A stretch of 64,000 nucleotides of DNA from Flavobacteriales bacterium (GTDB taxonomy: Bacteria > Bacteroidota > Bacteroidia > Flavobacteriales_G > Salibacteraceae), in contig JABMOM010000029.1 in the NCBI GenBank assembly GCA_013204105.1, forward strand, positions 62,001 to 126,000, in the 5' to 3' direction. Below, piece by piece: positions 1 through 46,498 of this stretch. The notes under the pieces are model-generated. The model was not told the origin of the DNA, searched no databases, and saw nothing but the letters and a program-made list of their open reading frames with translations. A program made the translations under genes and the position numbers. Numbering within the stretch: the stretch's first letter is position 1; every line of letters begins with the position of its first letter.

Positions 1-219
1 TTAGGAATGGCCTACGGCATTTCTGGAGATCAAGCCCAGGCTGAAGCATACTTTAACCGAGCCATCCGAATAGAGCCTCGGAATGCGGAAGCGCATTTGA
101 ACTTGGGCCTTCTCTACCTGAACACCCAACGACCAGACCTAGCAGGCGAAAGTTTACGAAACGCCTTGGCCTTGGATCCAAACCTAGAACAAGCGCGTCA
201 ATTACTCGATCGTTTATGA
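1..219 (+). CDS. TPR-repeat protein, C-terminal end (partial)
   Basis: The reading frame is open from the left edge, so this is the tail of a longer protein. The visible 70 or so residues hold about two tetratricopeptide repeats: A-E-A-Y-F-N-R-A-I-R-I-E-P-R-N-A-E-A-H is a classic TPR helix pair junction, and L-G-L-L-Y and ALALDPNLEQA follow. TPR domains are protein-protein interaction scaffolds; nothing here says which partner. Its TGA stop overlaps the ATG of the next gene (ATGA), so the two are probably translationally coupled. Start and full length lie outside the window. Confidence 0.8.
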   Translation, partial: LGMAYGISGDQAQAEAYFNRAIRIEPRNAEAHLNLGLLYLNTQRPDLAGESLRNALALDPNLEQARQLLDRL

Positions 220-884
220 TCTGGATGCTCACCTGTGAGCACTACAGCAATGGTGTTCCGCTTCAGTATGCGCACCTATTTGTGAAAGCCGTAGACGTGT
301 TGGAAAGTCACCGGGGCTACGATGTTCGTGTAGCTCCGATGTATCTCAGGCTTGAACCCTTGTTTGACGAGGCTCGCTTCTTTCGCTACACACGCTTGTT
401 GATCGAACCCAACCGCCAGATCCAAGACAAGCACCTCTTCTCTCCTTTTACGGCCCAACTTTCTACGTCGGAAAAAGCGGATATCACCAGCAGGTATTAC
501 CATCCCTACCGAACGGGTATTGAACGGTTCATCGAGCAATACATTGACGAAGGGGTATTTCACATTTCCTTGCATTCATTCCACCCAGGGCTGGGTAGCC
601 AAAATCGTGAAACGCCCATCGGTCTGTCGTTCGATTCAAAACGTCAATGGGAACGAGAGGTGGCTATCATTTGGCGGCGTGCAATTCAAGAACTTTCTCC
701 AACCCATAACGTCCGATTCAACTATCCCTATCGAGGCAATAAGAATGGATTCACATCGTATTTACGCAATTGCTTTCCGGAGAATTACACCGCTTTAGAA
801 TTGGAGGTGAGAAACGATGTCGTACTCGACTTGAGGCAAACGATCTACGAGAGCCTTGCCAACTTGAGGGGGGTGATTGGTTGA
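216..884 (+). CDS. N-formylglutamate amidohydrolase-like protein
   Basis: 222 aa. The N-terminus carries the family motif TCEHYSNGVP (Cys-Glu-His, expected metal/substrate site), followed by SHRGYD, a central LIEPNR and a SLHSFHP motif, and it ends with ALELEVRNDV. This matches the N-formylglutamate amidohydrolase (FGase, PF05013) superfamily, zinc-dependent amidases that release formate from N-formyl-glutamate in histidine breakdown. No hut genes are nearby, so the true substrate is unknown. A clear paralogue with the same motif order sits at 45824-46498 inside an amidoligase operon. The start ATG overlaps the stop of the TPR gene by 4 bases. Confidence 0.8.
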   Translation: MIWMLTCEHYSNGVPLQYAHLFVKAVDVLESHRGYDVRVAPMYLRLEPLFDEARFFRYTRLLIEPNRQIQDKHLFSPFTAQLSTSEKADITSRYYHPYRTGIERFIEQYIDEGVFHISLHSFHPGLGSQNRETPIGLSFDSKRQWEREVAIIWRRAIQELSPTHNVRFNYPYRGNKNGFTSYLRNCFPENYTALELEVRNDVVLDLRQTIYESLANLRGVIG

Positions 885-3219: not shown

Positions 3220-5463
3220 TTATTCCTGAATCTTATTAATCAGCACTGGCAACACCAACAAATCCGCAATGACAGCTACGGCCAATGTAATACTGACCAA
3301 TAGTCCAACGTAAAACGTACTGGTAAAGTCAGAGGAGATCAAGGCGAAGAACCCTGCACAGAGGATGAGACTGGTCAGAATAATTGCCTTTCCGGTGGAC
3401 ACACTTGTACGTCGAAGCGCCCAAACGTGAGAGCGCCCCTTCCCTCTTTCGAGTCGGTACTTGCTCAGGTAGTGAATGGAGTCATCCACGGCTATGCCAA
3501 AAGCGATTCCGAATATGATAGACGTAGAGACCTTCATGTCGATACCGACTATGCCCATGACCCCACCGATCACTAAGAGAGGTAACACATTCGGAATCAA
3601 GGTTACCAAGGCCATTTTTACAGACCGAAATAGTATCCCCATGATCACCGCAACAACCCCCAAAGCAAAGAGAAGTCCGAACATCATGTTCATTGATAGA
3701 GTCTCATTGTTTTTATCGATCAACACGGCCATACCGGTGAGCCTGAGGTCAATGGTTTGCAAGGGATCCTCTATTGTGAAGTAATCATTCAAGGCAACTC
3801 CGAGGGCTTTGGCTCTCTTCCCTCCTATGTCACCCGTCTTTCCGGAGAACCGGGCTTCCCGGCCATCGGCTGTGACCAAGGCGCCGAATTCTGGTCTATT
3901 CCTAAACATCGTGACCACCTTCAATGCCTTGCTCAATTCCTCATCTGATTCAGGAATACGAAACGCTGAATCACGCCCGCCATTCCTTGCTTGGTGAGCA
4001 CTTTTGATCATGGTAAGTGGAGAAAGCACATCGCCCACCCCAAAGTTTTCACGCAGGTATATGTCCACACGCTCCAATTCCCTGATTACGCTTGGATCAA
4101 AGACATGCAGTGTGCTGTCTTTTACGGAAACGGCAAGCTCAAAAGGCCGGGCACCCGCAAAGTAGCGCTCGAAATATTCAAAACTGTAGCGCATGGGGTC
4201 GTCCTTTCCTACATCTTCCAGTAAGTAATTGTTCACTTCAATGCGAGAGATCGACCAGATTGAAATGATGACTACCAACAGCGTCGCACCGAGAATTTTC
4301 CATTGATTGCGCATCGAGAACAGGAAAATCATCCTTACCAATTTATTCCAGAAAAGATCTGAAGGTTCCTTATAAGCAAGTTTTGGAACCTTCGTCAACA
4401 CAAGAATGGCCGGGAGCAAACTGAAGGCAAGAATAAAGGCAATGAAAACGCCTGCGGCAGCATAGATTCCCAATTCTCTTACCGGCTCAATACCACTGCT
4501 CAATAAGGTCAGAAAACCCAACGCAGTCGTGAAGGAAGTGAGGAAGGTGGCCATGCCCACTTGTTTGTAAGCAATGGTGATCGCCTCTAGCTTTGCCTTT
4601 CCGTTTCGGATCTCCTCAAAGTACCTACTGACTAAGTGAATGACGTCACTCACGCCAACAACGAAAATGACCAATGGCAAGAGTGCCGTCATGATGTCGA
4701 TCTGCTTTCCAACCAAACCCATGAGTCCCAAAAGCCAAATAACCGACAGCATAACAACCAGCAAGGGCACAATTACTCCCCAAATGCTTCGGTATACGAA
4801 TGATAAAATCAAGACTACCAAAAGGATGGCTATGGAAAAGAAAAGCGCGAACTCGAACTTAATCTGCTCTATGTAGTACGCCTGACCAATGACTTTACCC
4901 GCCATGTGCATCTCATCGTATGTAAAGCGATCTAGAACGTCCTTCATCTCAAAGTAAACCGTATCGGTCTCTAGCTTCGAGAGGTTTGGCTCGATCTCTA
5001 CCAGAATGGCCATGCTCTTCGCATCTTCTGAAAACAAGGTCCCTACTCCTTTAGAATGGGTGTAGATTTTTGCGCTATCAGCGGCATAGAGATCGGGCTT
5101 GTCCCAATGCAAATAGGGAATATCAATCGGGCCGAAGGGTCCCAATGAAAAGGAGCGGGCATCGAAAGGCGATCGAATGCGGTCTACCTCATCCAAGGTG
5201 CCCAATGCATCACACATGGACTTGGCTTTTGAAAGGAAGGCCTCATCAAAGATGCCTTCTTCATTGCGCACTGCAATCAACACGAAATCTACATCCGTGG
5301 CGAATTTATCCTTGAATTCATAGTAAAAATCGAGGTCATCATCATCGCTGGGGAAGAAATGCTCGAACTCATAATCGAAGCCTAGCGTGGTGATCTGATA
5401 TCCCGCACCCAGGGTGATCAGCACAACGGCCGCTATGATCCATTTGGCTATGCGTGTATTCAT
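3220..5463 (-). CDS. RND-superfamily (MMPL-type) exporter
   Basis: 747 aa from MNTRIAKWII; the frame is open 20 codons further but that extension has no signal or homologous look. The architecture is two repeats, each with one transmembrane helix, a large periplasmic loop (about residues 30-200 and 410-575) and a bundle of five helices. Visible family marks are the first-bundle GVSDVIHLVSRYFEE and second-bundle GIAVDDSIHYLSKYR, the proton-relay region of the MMPL/COG1033 'predicted exporter of the RND superfamily'. Substrate unknown; lipids or hopanoids are typical for the family. It stands alone between the TRL operon and dnaK. Confidence 0.85.
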   Translation of the reverse strand: MNTRIAKWIIAAVVLITLGAGYQITTLGFDYEFEHFFPSDDDDLDFYYEFKDKFATDVDFVLIAVRNEEGIFDEAFLSKAKSMCDALGTLDEVDRIRSPFDARSFSLGPFGPIDIPYLHWDKPDLYAADSAKIYTHSKGVGTLFSEDAKSMAILVEIEPNLSKLETDTVYFEMKDVLDRFTYDEMHMAGKVIGQAYYIEQIKFEFALFFSIAILLVVLILSFVYRSIWGVIVPLLVVMLSVIWLLGLMGLVGKQIDIMTALLPLVIFVVGVSDVIHLVSRYFEEIRNGKAKLEAITIAYKQVGMATFLTSFTTALGFLTLLSSGIEPVRELGIYAAAGVFIAFILAFSLLPAILVLTKVPKLAYKEPSDLFWNKLVRMIFLFSMRNQWKILGATLLVVIISIWSISRIEVNNYLLEDVGKDDPMRYSFEYFERYFAGARPFELAVSVKDSTLHVFDPSVIRELERVDIYLRENFGVGDVLSPLTMIKSAHQARNGGRDSAFRIPESDEELSKALKVVTMFRNRPEFGALVTADGREARFSGKTGDIGGKRAKALGVALNDYFTIEDPLQTIDLRLTGMAVLIDKNNETLSMNMMFGLLFALGVVAVIMGILFRSVKMALVTLIPNVLPLLVIGGVMGIVGIDMKVSTSIIFGIAFGIAVDDSIHYLSKYRLERGKGRSHVWALRRTSVSTGKAIILTSLILCAGFFALISSDFTSTFYVGLLVSITLAVAVIADLLVLPVLINKIQE

Positions 5464-5529
5464 CGAAATTCGGTCTGCAAAGTACAGCTCCCATAGTAAC
5501 ACACAAGTCACCACTTTGCTCACAGGGTA

Positions 5530-5560
5530 AAAAAAGAAAGGGCTGATTGCTCAGCCCTTT
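5530..5560 (-). terminator. Rho-independent terminator of dnaK
   Basis: A perfect 10-bp stem AAAGGGCTGA / TCAGCCCTTT with a 4-base loop, followed on the minus strand by C and seven T. It is placed 45 bp after the dnaK stop. Confidence 0.92.
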
Positions 5561-5605
5561 CCATGCCGCGCTCCTTTGCGCGACTCATCCCTACTACCTA
5601 ACCTA

Positions 5606-7516
5606 CTACTTTTCGTCCTTCACTTCTTCAAAGTCAACATCAGTGACCTCCTCGTCCGAGCCTGACTCGTCTGCTGGAGCTCCTTCGGCACCGCCGGCTT
5701 GCTGCTCTGCCTCTTGCGAAGCCGCGTACATTTCCTGAGATGCTGCTTGGAACACTGTGTTCAATTTTTCCATGGAAGCGTCGATCGCCTCTAGGTTCTT
5801 TTCTTCATGCGCCTTCTTCAATTCAGTCAAGGCCTCGTCGATCGGTTGCTTCTTATCTTCTGGCAACTTCTCTCCGTACTCTTTCAACTGCTTCTCCGTT
5901 TGGAAAATCATGTTATCAGCTGCATTTAGCTTATCGATCGACTCTTTGGCTTGCTTATCCGTTTCGGCGTTGGCCTCGGCTTCTCGCTTCATCTTATCGA
6001 TCTCTTCTTGGCTCAAACCTGAAGAAGCTTCGATTCGAATGCTCTGCTCCTTGTTTGTAGCCTTATCCTTCGCAGATACGTGCAGGATGCCGTTGGCGTC
6101 GATGTCAAAAGTGACTTCAACCTGAGGAACCCCCCTTGGAGATGGTGGAATACCATCCAAATGGAATCGCCCGATCGTGCGGTTGTCTTTTGCCATTGGA
6201 CGCTCACCTTGCAGCACGTGGATCTCAACCGATGGTTGATTATCGCTTGCTGTAGAGAAGGTCTCTGACTTCTTTGTCGGAATGGTGGTGTTCGATTCTA
6301 TGAGTTTGGTGAAGACACCGCCCATCGTTTCTATTCCGAGTGAAAGTGGTGTGACGTCTAAAAGAAGTACATCCTTCACGTCTCCACTCAACACGCCCCC
6401 TTGGATTGCAGCTCCCACGGCTACCACCTCATCTGGATTCACTCCCTTGCTCGGCTCTTTGCCAAAGAATTTCTTTACCGCATCCTGAACGGCAGGAATT
6501 CGCGTTGAACCTCCCACAAGAATGACGTGATCAATCTCATCAGCCCTCAATCCACTCTGCTTAAGTGCATTCTTACACGGCCCAATCGTACGTTGGATCA
6601 AGGCATCTGTCAATTGCTCGAACTTCGAGCGACTGAGTGTTCTCACCAAGTGCTTAGGCACGCCGTCTACTGGCATGATGTACGGGAGGTTGATCTCCGT
6701 GCTTGTAGCACTGGAGAGCTCAATCTTGGCCTTCTCCGCTGCTTCTTTCAAACGCTGAAGCGCCATTGGATCCTTGCTGAGGTCTGCTCCTTCATCGCTC
6801 TTGAATTCCGCCACCAACCAATCGATGATTTCTTGGTCGAAATCGTCTCCTCCAAGGTGTGTATCACCATCGGTTGCTTTTACTTCGAAAACACCTTCTC
6901 CGAGTTCGAGGATCGAAACGTCATGGGTACCTCCACCGCAGTCAAAGACCACAATCTTCATGTCTTCGCCTTTCTTGTCGAGGCCATATGCCAGAGATGC
7001 TGCGGTTGGCTCATTGATGATCCTGCGCACCTTGAGTCCAGCAATTTCTCCTGCCTCTTTGGTCGCTTGACGCTGTGCATCATTGAAGTAAGCCGGAACG
7101 GTAATAACCGCCTCTGTAACTTCTTGACCTAAGTAATCCTCCGCAGTCTTCTTCATCTTCTGAAGAACCATAGCAGACAATTCCTGTGGAGTATACAATC
7201 TATCGTCTATGCGGACGCGAGGCGTATTGTTATCGCCCTTCTCAACTTTGTACGGGACGCGCGAAATCTCTCTGCTGCATTCATCGTAGCTCGACCCCAT
7301 GAATCGCTTGATACTGTAGATCGTCTTTGTAGGGTTCGTGATCGCCTGACGCTTTGCAGGGTCACCGATCTTTCTTTCACCACCCTCTGTGAATCCGATT
7401 ACTGAAGGAGTGGTTCTTTTTCCTTCGCTGTTTGGTATCACCACTGGTTCGTTGCCTTCCATTACGGCAACGCAACTGTTAGTGGTTCCCAAGTCAATTC
7501 CTATTATTTTTCCCAT
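5606..7516 (-). CDS. dnaK: Chaperone protein DnaK (Hsp70)
   Basis: 636 aa, the usual bacterial length. ATP-driven cytosolic chaperone working with DnaJ and GrpE. The N-terminal ATPase domain (to about residue 385) shows the phosphate-binding [10 protein letters not shown] at the start, [42 protein letters not shown] and [11 protein letters not shown]. The substrate-binding domain and helical lid follow, ending in the acidic [15 protein letters not shown]. The start [14 protein letters not shown] was chosen over an ATG 18 codons upstream because Hsp70s begin there. No dnaJ or grpE is adjacent. Own terminator downstream and palindromes upstream. Confidence 0.98.
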
Positions 7517-42430: not shown

Positions 42431-43147
42431 TTGAATACAGCTACGAAGGGTCTTGAAGTGCACATGCTGCCTCAACCTGACGACAACACTTGCGGGCCGA
42501 CCAGCCTTCACGCAGTGTATAACTACCACAACCTTCATCTATCTCTCGACGAGGTAATCACAGGAATTGACCGAGTTGGCAATGGCGGCACTTTGGCCGT
42601 TTACCTTGGGGTTGATGCCTTGAAAAGAGGCTTTGACGCGACCATCTATACGTTCAACTTAAGGATGTTTGACCCTTCTTGGTTTGGTCTTTCGAATTCC
42701 CAAATGCGAGACAAGATTAAAGCCCAACTCAAGCATAAGCGGAAAAAGGAACTCAGAGATATGGGTAACGCATACATTGAATTTCTTGCGCTTGGCGGTC
42801 AACTAAAGATGGAAGACCTAACCACTACGCTGATTCAATCGTTTCTGGATGAAGGCACACCCGTATTAACAGGACTTTCAGCCACTTATCTATATCATTC
42901 GCAACGAGAATACGCCAATGACGAAGGACAATCCATCTATGACGATCTGAAGGGTGAGCCAATGGGCCACTTTGTAGTTTTAATGGGACGGTCAGAAAAT
43001 GGAGATATTTTAGTCGCTGACCCCTACAAGGGAAACCCAATCAGCTCAAACAATTATTACAAGGTCTCTCCTACCCGTCTCATCCATTCAATCTTGCTCG
43101 GTATTGTAACCTATGATGCTAACTTGCTAATCATTACACCCAAATGA
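42431..43147 (+). CDS. C39-like cysteine peptidase
   Basis: 238 aa from TTG at 42431 (an in-frame stop at 42425 blocks anything earlier). GTG 42458 or ATG 42464 are alternatives that keep the conserved MLPQPDDNTCGPTSLH. Papain-fold triad visible: Cys in DNTCGPTSLHAV, His in EPMGHFVVLMG and Asp in ILVADPYKG, the pattern of family C39-type and papain-like enzymes. No signal peptide and no ABC transporter, so not a bacteriocin processing exporter. First gene of a four-gene coupled operon with amide-ligase genes; may cleave, condense or hydrolyse a peptide product. Confidence 0.82.
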   Translation: MNTATKGLEVHMLPQPDDNTCGPTSLHAVYNYHNLHLSLDEVITGIDRVGNGGTLAVYLGVDALKRGFDATIYTFNLRMFDPSWFGLSNSQMRDKIKAQLKHKRKKELRDMGNAYIEFLALGGQLKMEDLTTTLIQSFLDEGTPVLTGLSATYLYHSQREYANDEGQSIYDDLKGEPMGHFVVLMGRSENGDILVADPYKGNPISSNNYYKVSPTRLIHSILLGIVTYDANLLIITPK

Positions 43148-44607
43148 AGAAAATTGTCGTAGTCGGAAATCCTGCCCAGTGGCATATTGATGTTGAAAAT
43201 TGTGTTGTCATCTCATCCAAAGAGTATTTGACGAATCCGAGTTGGGCTGGCGAAAGGAATGCGCGGGTATTCAATATGTCCAACGAATACCGATATCAAT
43301 CCAAGGGATACTATGTGTCACTTATGGCAGAAGCTCGCGGACACAAACCAATTCCAAACGTTAAAAACATCCAAGACATCAAAGCGACAGAGATTGTCAA
43401 GAGTATATCAGATGAATTGGATGAACTCATCCAAAGGAGCTTCAAAGACATCAAATCCAGCGAGTTTGTTTTGAGTATTTATTTTGGGAAAAATCTCGCC
43501 AAACAATATGATAAGCTGAGCCGCGAGCTGCATCGTTTGTTTCGATCTCCCTTTATGCGCGCTCGCTTTTCATACAATGGCAAGAAATGGGTGATTTCAG
43601 GCCTAAAAACCATTCCCTTCAAGGAAATACCCGATCAGCATACCGACTTTGTGTGGGAATCTGCCACTGAATTCTTTCAACGACGTCGATTCACAGAACG
43701 CAAAGAGCTGCCCTATCAATTTGACTTAGCCATACTGGTCAATCCTGATGAAAAAGCTCCTCCATCTGATAAGAAAGCACTCCAAAAGTTTCAGGAAGCA
43801 GCGGAGAAGTTGGGGATGTATGTTGAGATGATTACAAAGGATGATTATTCTCGATTGGCCGAATTCGACGCCCTGTTTATTCGAGAAACCACGTCTGTCA
43901 ATCACTACACCTACAAATTTGCAAGACGGGCGCAAAGCGAGGGCATGGCCGTTATTGATGACCCGGACTCCATTCTAAAATGTGCCAACAAAGTGTTCCT
44001 CGCAGAATTGCTGAACCTCAATAAAATCCCAATGCCCAAAACGATTATCGTTCATCAAGACAATAAAAATGAAGTGGTTGAATCACTGGGATTCCCTTGT
44101 GTATTAAAGCTACCAGACTCGTCGTTTTCACAGGGAGTGTCAAAAGCCAAAAACTTAGGGGAATACCAAGAGAAAATTGCGGCATTACTTTCAGAATCAG
44201 ACCTTGTAATTGCCCAGGAATTCATGCCGAGCGACTATGATTGGCGCGTCGGCGTTTTAGAGAATCGCATCATATATGCTTGCAAATACTACATGGCCAA
44301 AGACCATTGGCAGATCTATAACTGGGATAGCAAGAATAAGGGCGACATCCAAGGTAACTTCGATACCCTTCCCATTGAGGATGTTCCCCCAGCCATTATT
44401 GAATTGGCTTTAAAGTCGACTGCGCTTATTGGCGACGGGCTTTATGGCGTTGATATCAAAGAGACCGCGGGCAATGTGGTGGTTATTGAGATCAACGACA
44501 ATCCGAATATCGACAGCGGTGTGGAAGATCGAGAAGCCGGAATCGAGCTCTATAGTTGGATCATAGCGAGTCTAAAACGTCGTATTCAAGTACAATTAAA
44601 ACAATGA
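43144..44607 (+). CDS. RimK-family ATP-grasp ligase with RLAN-like N-terminal domain
   Basis: 487 aa. N-terminal about 1-190: KIVVVGNPAQWHIDVENCVVISSKEYL and NEYRYQSKGYYVSLMAEARGHKPIPN, the RimK-like ATP-grasp N-terminal (RLAN) domain. About 195-290 is the pre-ATP-grasp part (DLAILVNPDEKAPPSDKKAL; DALFIRETTSVNHYTYKFARRA). The ATP-grasp core has PCVLKLPDSSFSQGV, AQEFMPSDYDWRVGVL and the Mg-binding VVVIEINDNPNIDSGVED. Such enzymes join an acyl-phosphate carboxylate to an amine, often glutamate. ATGA overlap with the peptidase gene and with the next ligase. Confidence 0.88.
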   Translation: MKKIVVVGNPAQWHIDVENCVVISSKEYLTNPSWAGERNARVFNMSNEYRYQSKGYYVSLMAEARGHKPIPNVKNIQDIKATEIVKSISDELDELIQRSFKDIKSSEFVLSIYFGKNLAKQYDKLSRELHRLFRSPFMRARFSYNGKKWVISGLKTIPFKEIPDQHTDFVWESATEFFQRRRFTERKELPYQFDLAILVNPDEKAPPSDKKALQKFQEAAEKLGMYVEMITKDDYSRLAEFDALFIRETTSVNHYTYKFARRAQSEGMAVIDDPDSILKCANKVFLAELLNLNKIPMPKTIIVHQDNKNEVVESLGFPCVLKLPDSSFSQGVSKAKNLGEYQEKIAALLSESDLVIAQEFMPSDYDWRVGVLENRIIYACKYYMAKDHWQIYNWDSKNKGDIQGNFDTLPIEDVPPAIIELALKSTALIGDGLYGVDIKETAGNVVVIEINDNPNIDSGVEDREAGIELYSWIIASLKRRIQVQLKQ

Positions 44608-45827
44608 GCTATCATCTTTTTGACGTTTATGGAGTAGAATTGGAATACATGATCGTGGACCAAACGACTCGAAAAATTCGTCCGATCGCCGATCAAATTT
44701 TCAAAGAAGCCACAGGGAGTTACATTGCAGATTATGAAAACGGTAATGTTGCTTGGAGCAATGAACTCGTTTCGCATGTCGTAGAAATTAAAACCAACGG
44801 CCCTGCTTCGACCATGAATGGTTTGGGAACAGATTTTCACCAGAATGTTTTAAAAATCAATTCCATTCTAGAAAAGCACAACGCGGTTTTGATGCCTGGT
44901 GGTGCCCATCCGACCGTAGATCCGCTCACTGAAACGCAAATCTGGCCTCACGAACACAACGAGGTATATGCGTTGTATAACAGAGTCTTCAATTGCAAAG
45001 GCCATGGCTGGAGTAACCTGCAGAGTACCCACATCAACTTACCCTTTACCGGAGATGAGGAATTTAAACGACTGCATGCCGCCATTCGGATACTGCTGCC
45101 TTTCATTCCAGCACTTTCAGCCAGCACCCCCTTTTTCGATGGAAAATTCAGTGGCTTCAAGAATATGCGCCTAGAATATTATCGAAAGAATCAAGCAAAG
45201 ATTCCCATCATAGCCGGCTTAGTGATACCCGAGCGTGTATTCAGCAAAGCGGACTACTATCAGACTATTTTTAACCCCATCAATCTAGCCATTAAACCCT
45301 ATGACAGCGAGGGAATTCTAGACCACCACTTCTTGAATAGCCGAGGTGCCATTGCCCGATTTGACCGGGGTGCCATTGAAATTCGAATCATTGATATTCA
45401 AGAATGTCCAAAAATGGACATTGCAATTCTCAACCTGATTGTTGCCGTCTTGAAACATCTTTGCGCTTTGCCTGAAAAGGAACAAAAGGTGATGCAAAGG
45501 CAATCTGAGCAGCTGCTTTCTTCTCACTTCTTAAAGGTGATAAAAGAGGGTGAAGATGCCTTGATAGACTATCCAGAATTGAATGAAATCTTAGGTCTAC
45601 CGATCGGCGAGCTCTTAGCCAAGGAGATTTGGGAAAGTTTGCTGAATCAACATCAGGAAGCAATGGATGAGAACTGTGTGAATTTGGTGGGTAGTATTCT
45701 GACGCACGGGACCTTAGCCTCAAGAATGGTCAAGTTCTGTGGGACCCATCCTACCCTGCCCCAAATTGACCTTCTGAATCAAAGGCTGATCACCTCGCTC
45801 GCGAACAACGAAATGTTTACGGCATGA
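44604..45827 (+). CDS. GCS2-type carboxylate-amine ligase (YbdK-like)
   Basis: 407 aa from MSYHLFDVYG (ATG overlapping the ATP-grasp stop). The frame is open 16 codons upstream but these overlap the ligase. GCS2 glutamate-cysteine ligase fold: LFDVYGVELEYMIVD (metal/ATP-binding Glu), VSHVVEIKTNGP, LMPGGAHPTVDPLTETQIWP, WSNLQSTHINLPF, and FDRGAIEIRIIDIQECPKMD. In YbdK-type enzymes it makes gamma-glutamyl or similar amide bonds; the partner amino acid is not visible. Confidence 0.85.
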   Translation: MSYHLFDVYGVELEYMIVDQTTRKIRPIADQIFKEATGSYIADYENGNVAWSNELVSHVVEIKTNGPASTMNGLGTDFHQNVLKINSILEKHNAVLMPGGAHPTVDPLTETQIWPHEHNEVYALYNRVFNCKGHGWSNLQSTHINLPFTGDEEFKRLHAAIRILLPFIPALSASTPFFDGKFSGFKNMRLEYYRKNQAKIPIIAGLVIPERVFSKADYYQTIFNPINLAIKPYDSEGILDHHFLNSRGAIARFDRGAIEIRIIDIQECPKMDIAILNLIVAVLKHLCALPEKEQKVMQRQSEQLLSSHFLKVIKEGEDALIDYPELNEILGLPIGELLAKEIWESLLNQHQEAMDENCVNLVGSILTHGTLASRMVKFCGTHPTLPQIDLLNQRLITSLANNEMFTA

Positions 45828-46498
45828 AACTCGTTTTGAGCTGCGAGCACTTCGACAATAAATTGCCAAAGCAATTTGCAGGACTATTTGGCACCAATCC
45901 ATCCATTCAAGCCTCACATCGGGCTTACGACATCGGAGCTGCTTTGCTCTTTGGTTCGCTCACACCTCTTTCCGATCATCATTTTACCTATGCCTATTCA
46001 AGGCTTTTGATTGAACCCAATCGTTCACTGCATCATCCAAGACTTTTCTCTGAGTTTTCTAAAACCCTTAGTCTAGATCAGAAAAGTGAGCTGATTGAAA
46101 AATTCTATAAACCCTACAGGAATCAAGTGGAGGCCTGCATAGGTAAAGTCATCGAATCGTCAGATTCAGTTTTGCACCTATCAGTGCACAGCTTCTCTCC
46201 TGACTTGAATGGCGAAGATCGAAACGCAGAAATCGGCTTGCTGTATGATCCGTCTCGAAGCTCAGAGAAGGAGTTTGCCAGGCGCTTTAAAAGGGCCATC
46301 ATGACCCTAGCTCCACATCTGAAGGTGCGGTATAACTATCCCTATTTAGGGAAAGCAGACGGATTCACTACTCACCTGCGAAAATCGTTTCCCAATGCGT
46401 ACAGTGGAATAGAATTGGAGGTGCGGAATGATGTCCTATCCACTGAAACTTGCGTCAGCATTCATAAGGCATTGAAGCAGGTAAAAGCTGCATTCTAA
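45824..46498 (+). CDS. N-formylglutamate amidohydrolase-like protein
   Basis: 224 aa. SCEHFDNKLP (Cys-Glu-His), SHRAYDIG, LIEPNR, LHLSVHSFSPDLNG and GIELEVRND correspond one-to-one with motifs of the paralogue at 216-884. Predicted zinc amidase that could release or trim an amide made by the two ligases next to it. ATG overlaps the ligase stop (ATGA); last gene in the coupled operon. Confidence 0.85.
   Translation: MKLVLSCEHFDNKLPKQFAGLFGTNPSIQASHRAYDIGAALLFGSLTPLSDHHFTYAYSRLLIEPNRSLHHPRLFSEFSKTLSLDQKSELIEKFYKPYRNQVEACIGKVIESSDSVLHLSVHSFSPDLNGEDRNAEIGLLYDPSRSSEKEFARRFKRAIMTLAPHLKVRYNYPYLGKADGFTTHLRKSFPNAYSGIELEVRNDVLSTETCVSIHKALKQVKAAF

Follow-up and report, generated by a model that had tools for sequence, protein, structure and literature searches.

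A conserved RLAN-ATP-grasp and GCS2 ligase operon in a Flavobacteriales bacterium and a tentative view of its product

The operon and its four proteins

The window analysed here is a 64,000-nucleotide stretch of contig JABMOM010000029.1 from a Flavobacteriales bacterium. Four open reading frames lie on its + strand at 42431-46498, and each of the three gene junctions is an ATGA in which the start and stop codons overlap (43144, 44604 and 45824). The initial annotation had described these as four coupled genes for a C39-like peptidase, an RLAN ATP-grasp ligase, a GCS2 ligase and an FGase homologue. The window sequence bears out the frames and overlaps, and all four proteins score above the Pfam gathering cut-offs.

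42431..43147, + strand: C39-like papain-fold cysteine peptidase (Pfam Peptidase_C39_2)
43144..44607, + strand: RLAN N-terminal domain (residues ~1-180) and RimK/LysX-like ATP-grasp ligase (~190-485) (Pfam)
44604..45827, + strand: GCS2-type carboxylate-amine ligase, divergent from the common YbdK clade (Pfam GCS2)
45824..46498, + strand: predicted metal-dependent amidohydrolase of the FGase family (Pfam FGase)

The start of the first gene is uncertain. It may be the annotated TTG at 42431, or an in-frame GTG at 42458 or ATG at 42464, both of which are located just 5' of the conserved QPDDxTCGPTS motif. The genome contains a single RLAN gene and a single GCS2 gene. Among the NCBIfam subfamilies examined, none of the four proteins reaches the curated cut-off of a named subfamily. 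A role in anti-phage defence was considered and rejected, as PADLOC matches none of the four.

The C39-like protein matches Peptidase_C39_2 (PF13529) at 35.1 bits against a cut-off of 24. It has a predicted Cys21-His180-Asp197 triad together with Gln15, and Q15, C21, H180 and D197 are invariant in 20 sequences. It is a single-domain protein of 238 amino acids with no ABC transporter domain and is thus not a bacteriocin-exporter C39 peptidase; no signal peptide was seen on it by eye. Members of the FGase family have an M14-like fold, and the window protein matches the family (PF05013) at 74.1 bits against 28.9. Its candidate catalytic residues C7-E8-H9, H32, D36, H118 and H122 are invariant in its relatives. 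HutG-type enzymes have the same fold family and the CEH, H and D motifs in common with it, but the window gene is not in a histidine-degradation context. An ordinary HutG was rejected, since the protein matches no NCBIfam family at E values up to 1.

The RLAN domain (PF14401) is matched at 159.6 bits against a cut-off of 25 and contains many invariant residues in an alignment of relatives; RimK and D-Ala-ligase-type ATP-grasp families are also matched. The candidate catalytic residues K283, K322, D366, R368, D437, E449 and N451 are invariant in ATP-grasp relatives, and the ATP/Mg-binding candidates among them (K283, K322, D437, E449 and N451) are those of a RimK/LysX/ArgX-type ligase. In a structure model with a pLDDT of 86.9, residues 193-483 match LysX, ArgX and RimK with Z scores of 27-29, and LysX/ArgX is the top match at 28.6. 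The window ligase thus has the fold and the ATP/Mg residues in common with these enzymes, but it differs from them in its extra RLAN domain and in a replaced NxxRGG loop. This loop of the RimK family was not seen in the aligned region, which reads HWQIYNWDSKNKGDIQGN in the window protein and follows the pattern YxMAxxHWQI in its family. Because this pattern stands where NxxRGG would be, the amine substrate is not transferable from RimK and, judging from the sequence, probably differs from it. YxMAxxHWQI occurs with both GCS2 and GNAT partners, and a partner-specific acceptor loop was therefore rejected. Ordinary RimK (TIGR00768; score 84 against a curated cut-off of 143.4) and ordinary GshB (14.6 against 299) were rejected as well.

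The third protein matches GCS2 (PF04107) at 96.6 bits against a gathering cut-off of 21. E12, E14, E54, H143, N145, R189, R255, E259 and R261 are invariant in its relatives and are candidate catalytic residues. Its model (pLDDT 92.8) matches YbdK (1r8g) with a Z score of 38.8 and plant glutamate-cysteine ligase (GCL) with 34.7, and it matches the Pup ligase PafA and Dop at about 16-21, well below these two. The fold and the invariant acidic and arginine residues are common to YbdK and plant-type GCL at 15% identity, and R189 aligns with an arginine in a segment of plant GCL. An ordinary YbdK (TIGR02050) was rejected with a score of 52.5 against a curated cut-off of 176.4. Structure modelling of the ligase active sites had been proposed as a check on the initial annotation; the candidate residues proved invariant and the folds are those of YbdK and LysX/ArgX.

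Conservation and history of the locus

Public genomes were scanned for relatives of the ATP-grasp protein; there were at least 580, of which the best 80 were kept. Among those of the best 80 with enough flanking sequence, GCS2 is close by in 62 of 63 loci, FGase in 52 and C39 in 25; the GCS2 start is usually a few bases from the RLAN stop. Since the same order recurs in most of the approximately 80 loci and in several phyla, the four-gene arrangement is not due to chance. Carriers belong to Bacteroidota, Fibrobacterota, Ignavibacteriota, Thermodesulfobacteriota and Legionella, with one PVC and one Uhrbacteria assignment that rest on MAG bins, which may err. The distribution of the ligase is patchy, with 35 of 296 genomes in the phylum of the window and 5 of 42 in its order.

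A larger set of 124 RLAN loci with enough flank was assembled with fetched panels of two phyla and plasmid records. GCS2 adjoins the RLAN-ATP-grasp gene in 105 of the 124, the window included, and 80 of these 105 have FGase and 59 a C39 gene. The four proteins diverge in parallel: their pairwise distances are correlated with r 0.75-0.91, which is what joint inheritance would produce. Co-occurrence of the genes elsewhere, on which the initial annotation had staked a shared pathway, is therefore found across several phyla. The module is a genuine, conserved amide-bond module that has apparently been exchanged between lineages.

Individual loci depart from the common arrangement. RLAN is followed by FGase in Breznakibacter xylanolyticus (L030), where the GCS2 gene is missing. 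A Pseudomonas aeruginosa plasmid (L121) and Aeromonas caviae (L124) carry an RLAN-ATP-grasp gene with neither GCS2 nor GNAT detected nearby; the partner is possibly elsewhere, or the function is possibly another one. RLAN-GCS2-FGase lies beside fur, bamE and dapF on the 9-kb 'plasmid 27' of Legionella adelaidensis (L123), a record that looks like a chromosomal piece labelled as a plasmid. At L147 (genome G553, ~4985-6630), the RLAN-ATP-grasp gene is in two overlapping frames with a reported in-frame TGA next to an intact-looking GCS2 gene; gene decay or an error in the sequence may explain this. M14 and M19 peptidases and a GNAT-nitrilase located upstream in Flavobacteriaceae loci are suggestive neighbours only.

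The genus of the window has a second, older site. In three genus-mates, xerD/TPR and a holin-like gene flank an RLAN-GCS2-FGase set that lacks C39. At the same site in six genomes, that of the window and five genus-mates, FGase is kept and the ligases are absent. In the window, this residue of the older locus, identified by synteny with genus-mates, is the following gene.

216..884, + strand: second FGase gene

It overlaps the end of the TPR gene, is 52-67% identical to the FGase of genus-mates, and has a dN/dS of 0.055 against the sister genome G322, which indicates purifying selection. The window ATP-grasp protein is 81% identical to that of a genome from another genus (G310) and 58-60% identical to those of genus-mates. 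The operon at 42.4 kb is of another lineage than the genus-mates' locus and probably moved in. G322 has the same flanking genes, and all that remains of the operon between them (L160, 8145-9814) is an intact FGase and the last 180 residues of GCS2. The place of C39, RLAN and the N-terminal part of GCS2 is taken by a short helix-turn-helix frame that by eye resembles an insertion element. The locus corresponds in position to the window operon and is a decayed copy of it. FGase thus outlasts ligases that are gained and lost, which means that it serves some purpose by itself; this persistence is the strongest argument that the four genes do not form an obligate pathway.

GNAT in place of GCS2

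A GNAT domain without GCS2 is present in 16 of the 124 loci, and neither is present in 3. FGase accompanies GCS2 in 80 of 105 loci and GNAT in none of 16 (Fisher 3e-9), or in 26 of 38 and 0 of 16 when only panel genomes are counted (Fisher 2e-6); both values treat related genomes as independent, and the true significance is smaller. The GNAT domain is mostly fused to the N-terminus of the RLAN-ATP-grasp protein and is an adjacent gene in some loci. In Azospirillum and one panel genome, it is fused to a C39-like DUF3335 domain beside RLAN-ATP-grasp. The fusion types are thus GNAT-RLAN-ATP-grasp, GNAT-C39/DUF3335 and GNAT-CN_hydrolase. The last is found directly upstream of RLAN-GCS2-FGase in six Flavobacteriaceae loci (for example L040, 6363-7925), and a GNAT therefore does not strictly exclude GCS2.

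Two independent GNAT/GCS2 swaps were considered but are not claimed: although the best tree shows two changes, the AU test does not reject a single clade of GNAT loci (p 0.25), and the partition may therefore reflect few events. The partition suggests that both enzymes act on one kind of amine, which GCS2 would cap with glutamate and GNAT with acetate, and that FGase removes the glutamate cap. The partition and the FGase history are what the present analysis adds.

Possible chemistry and competing explanations

We know of no product assigned to an RLAN/GCS2 neighbourhood. RLAN/RimK-like ATP-grasp neighbourhoods with GCS2 and peptidases were reportedly described by Iyer et al. 2009 (Mol BioSyst), who are said to have predicted peptide synthesis or modification. 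That neighbourhood type reportedly has the same domain set, and the window operon would be a member of this known, uncharacterised type. No paper on the module was found in the open literature. Glutathione synthesis by GshA and GshB likewise combines a GCS-fold ligase with an ATP-grasp ligase, in that case to make a gamma-glutamyl tripeptide, but the window ATP-grasp protein is far below the GshB cut-off and a separate GshB-like gene is located elsewhere in the genome. The NAGGN operon (asnO-ngg-peptidase) joins an acylating GNAT, a peptide-bond-forming activity and a peptidase; its Ngg protein N-acetylates one glutamine and joins it to a second glutamine (PMC8070244). The GNAT form of the module has its closest precedent in Ngg. 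The NAGGN hallmarks, a GNAT domain and the AsnO amidotransferase, are absent from the four window genes and their near flanks, and the window operon carries GCS2, RLAN, C39 and FGase instead.

The reading that we favour, tentatively and at close to an even chance, is that the module works in the cytoplasm, where it would both make and break a small, capped, peptide-like amide. The RLAN-ATP-grasp enzyme would activate a carboxylate as an acyl phosphate and join it to an amine, giving a core amide X-Y. GCS2 would couple the gamma-carboxylate of glutamate to a free amine to form gamma-glutamyl-X-Y, or would make gamma-glutamyl-X first, as either order is conceivable. The FGase homologue would hydrolyse the glutamate-containing amide, and the C39-like cysteine enzyme, where present, may cleave or transfer another amide bond. 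In the GNAT architecture, an acetyl cap would take the place of that added by GCS2, and FGase would not be needed. The gene conservation, folds, candidate catalytic residues and GCS2/FGase versus GNAT partition are observed features; the reactions, the capping logic and the small-molecule nature of the product are what we infer from them.

Against the capped-amide model, 25 of the 105 GCS2 loci are without FGase and 46 are without a C39 gene. In six genomes of the genus FGase is retained at its site although the ligases are missing, so it may act mainly on a different substrate. The initial annotation had made the reasonable proposal that two ligases build an amide which the peptidase and amidase trim, or that the set modifies and unmodifies a protein. 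Two ligases and hydrolases in one amide module fit all the data; the proposal has to be amended in that FGase is no strict partner and persists without ligases in several genus-mates, and in that roughly half of the loci have no C39 gene.

A distinct explanation is that the module tags a protein or peptide, with RLAN recognising the protein, the ATP-grasp and GCS2 enzymes attaching amino acids such as glutamate to it, and the C39-like and FGase-like enzymes taking them off. RimK modifies ribosomal protein S6 (PMC4741518), the best structural match LysX/ArgX acts on the LysW carrier protein according to PDB entry titles, and both the matches of the GCS2 model to PafA and Dop and the many invariant RLAN residues agree with tagging. 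We nevertheless consider it unlikely: inspection of the flanks showed no small acceptor protein that is conserved there, GNAT swaps for GCS2, and the small-molecule ligases YbdK and GCL are far better GCS2 matches than PafA and Dop. A dipeptide-like compatible solute or storage compound, similar in role to N-acetylglutaminylglutamine amide and turned over by the hydrolases, is rather less probable again. The GNAT/ATP-grasp logic is as in NAGGN and several carriers are named marine or halophilic Bacteroidota, but carriers also include rumen Fibrobacter, soil replicons of Azospirillum and freshwater or soil Hymenobacteraceae, and no conserved regulator or osmotic gene was found alongside the module.

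The hydrolases could instead be the core of a route that scavenges or detoxifies N-acyl or gamma-glutamyl amides, with the ligases only conditioning substrates. The purifying selection on the lone FGase at a site without RLAN and GCS2, and the intact FGase in the decayed operon of G322, agree with this idea; we find it improbable, given that across the wider set it is RLAN and GCS2 that stay together (105 of 124 loci), and FGase and C39 that vary. That these are neighbouring genes with no shared pathway is barely credible: it has only the patchy distribution in its favour and is contradicted by the conserved order, overlaps, fusions and correlated divergence across phyla.

Returning to the capped amide, a gene set that has stayed together in several phyla very likely has a useful product. 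A wider proposal, more doubtful than the capped amide itself, is that N-capped non-ribosomal peptides (gamma-glutamyl or acetyl), or a protein tag, have a cofactor or regulatory role in several phyla, GCS2 and GNAT being interchangeable capping enzymes on one conserved ATP-grasp core. If true, such peptides would be an undescribed and widespread class. The choice between GCS2 and GNAT, with FGase only alongside GCS2, makes the idea of a peptide pathway testable, as the same core amide should carry a gamma-glutamyl cap in one case and an acetyl cap in the other.

The window genome also contains a second set of ATP-grasp, FGase and peptidase. On contig C3 (L114, 5612-8621), a GshB-like ATP-grasp gene overlaps a gene encoding a fusion of FGase with MATCAP, a tyrosine carboxypeptidase.
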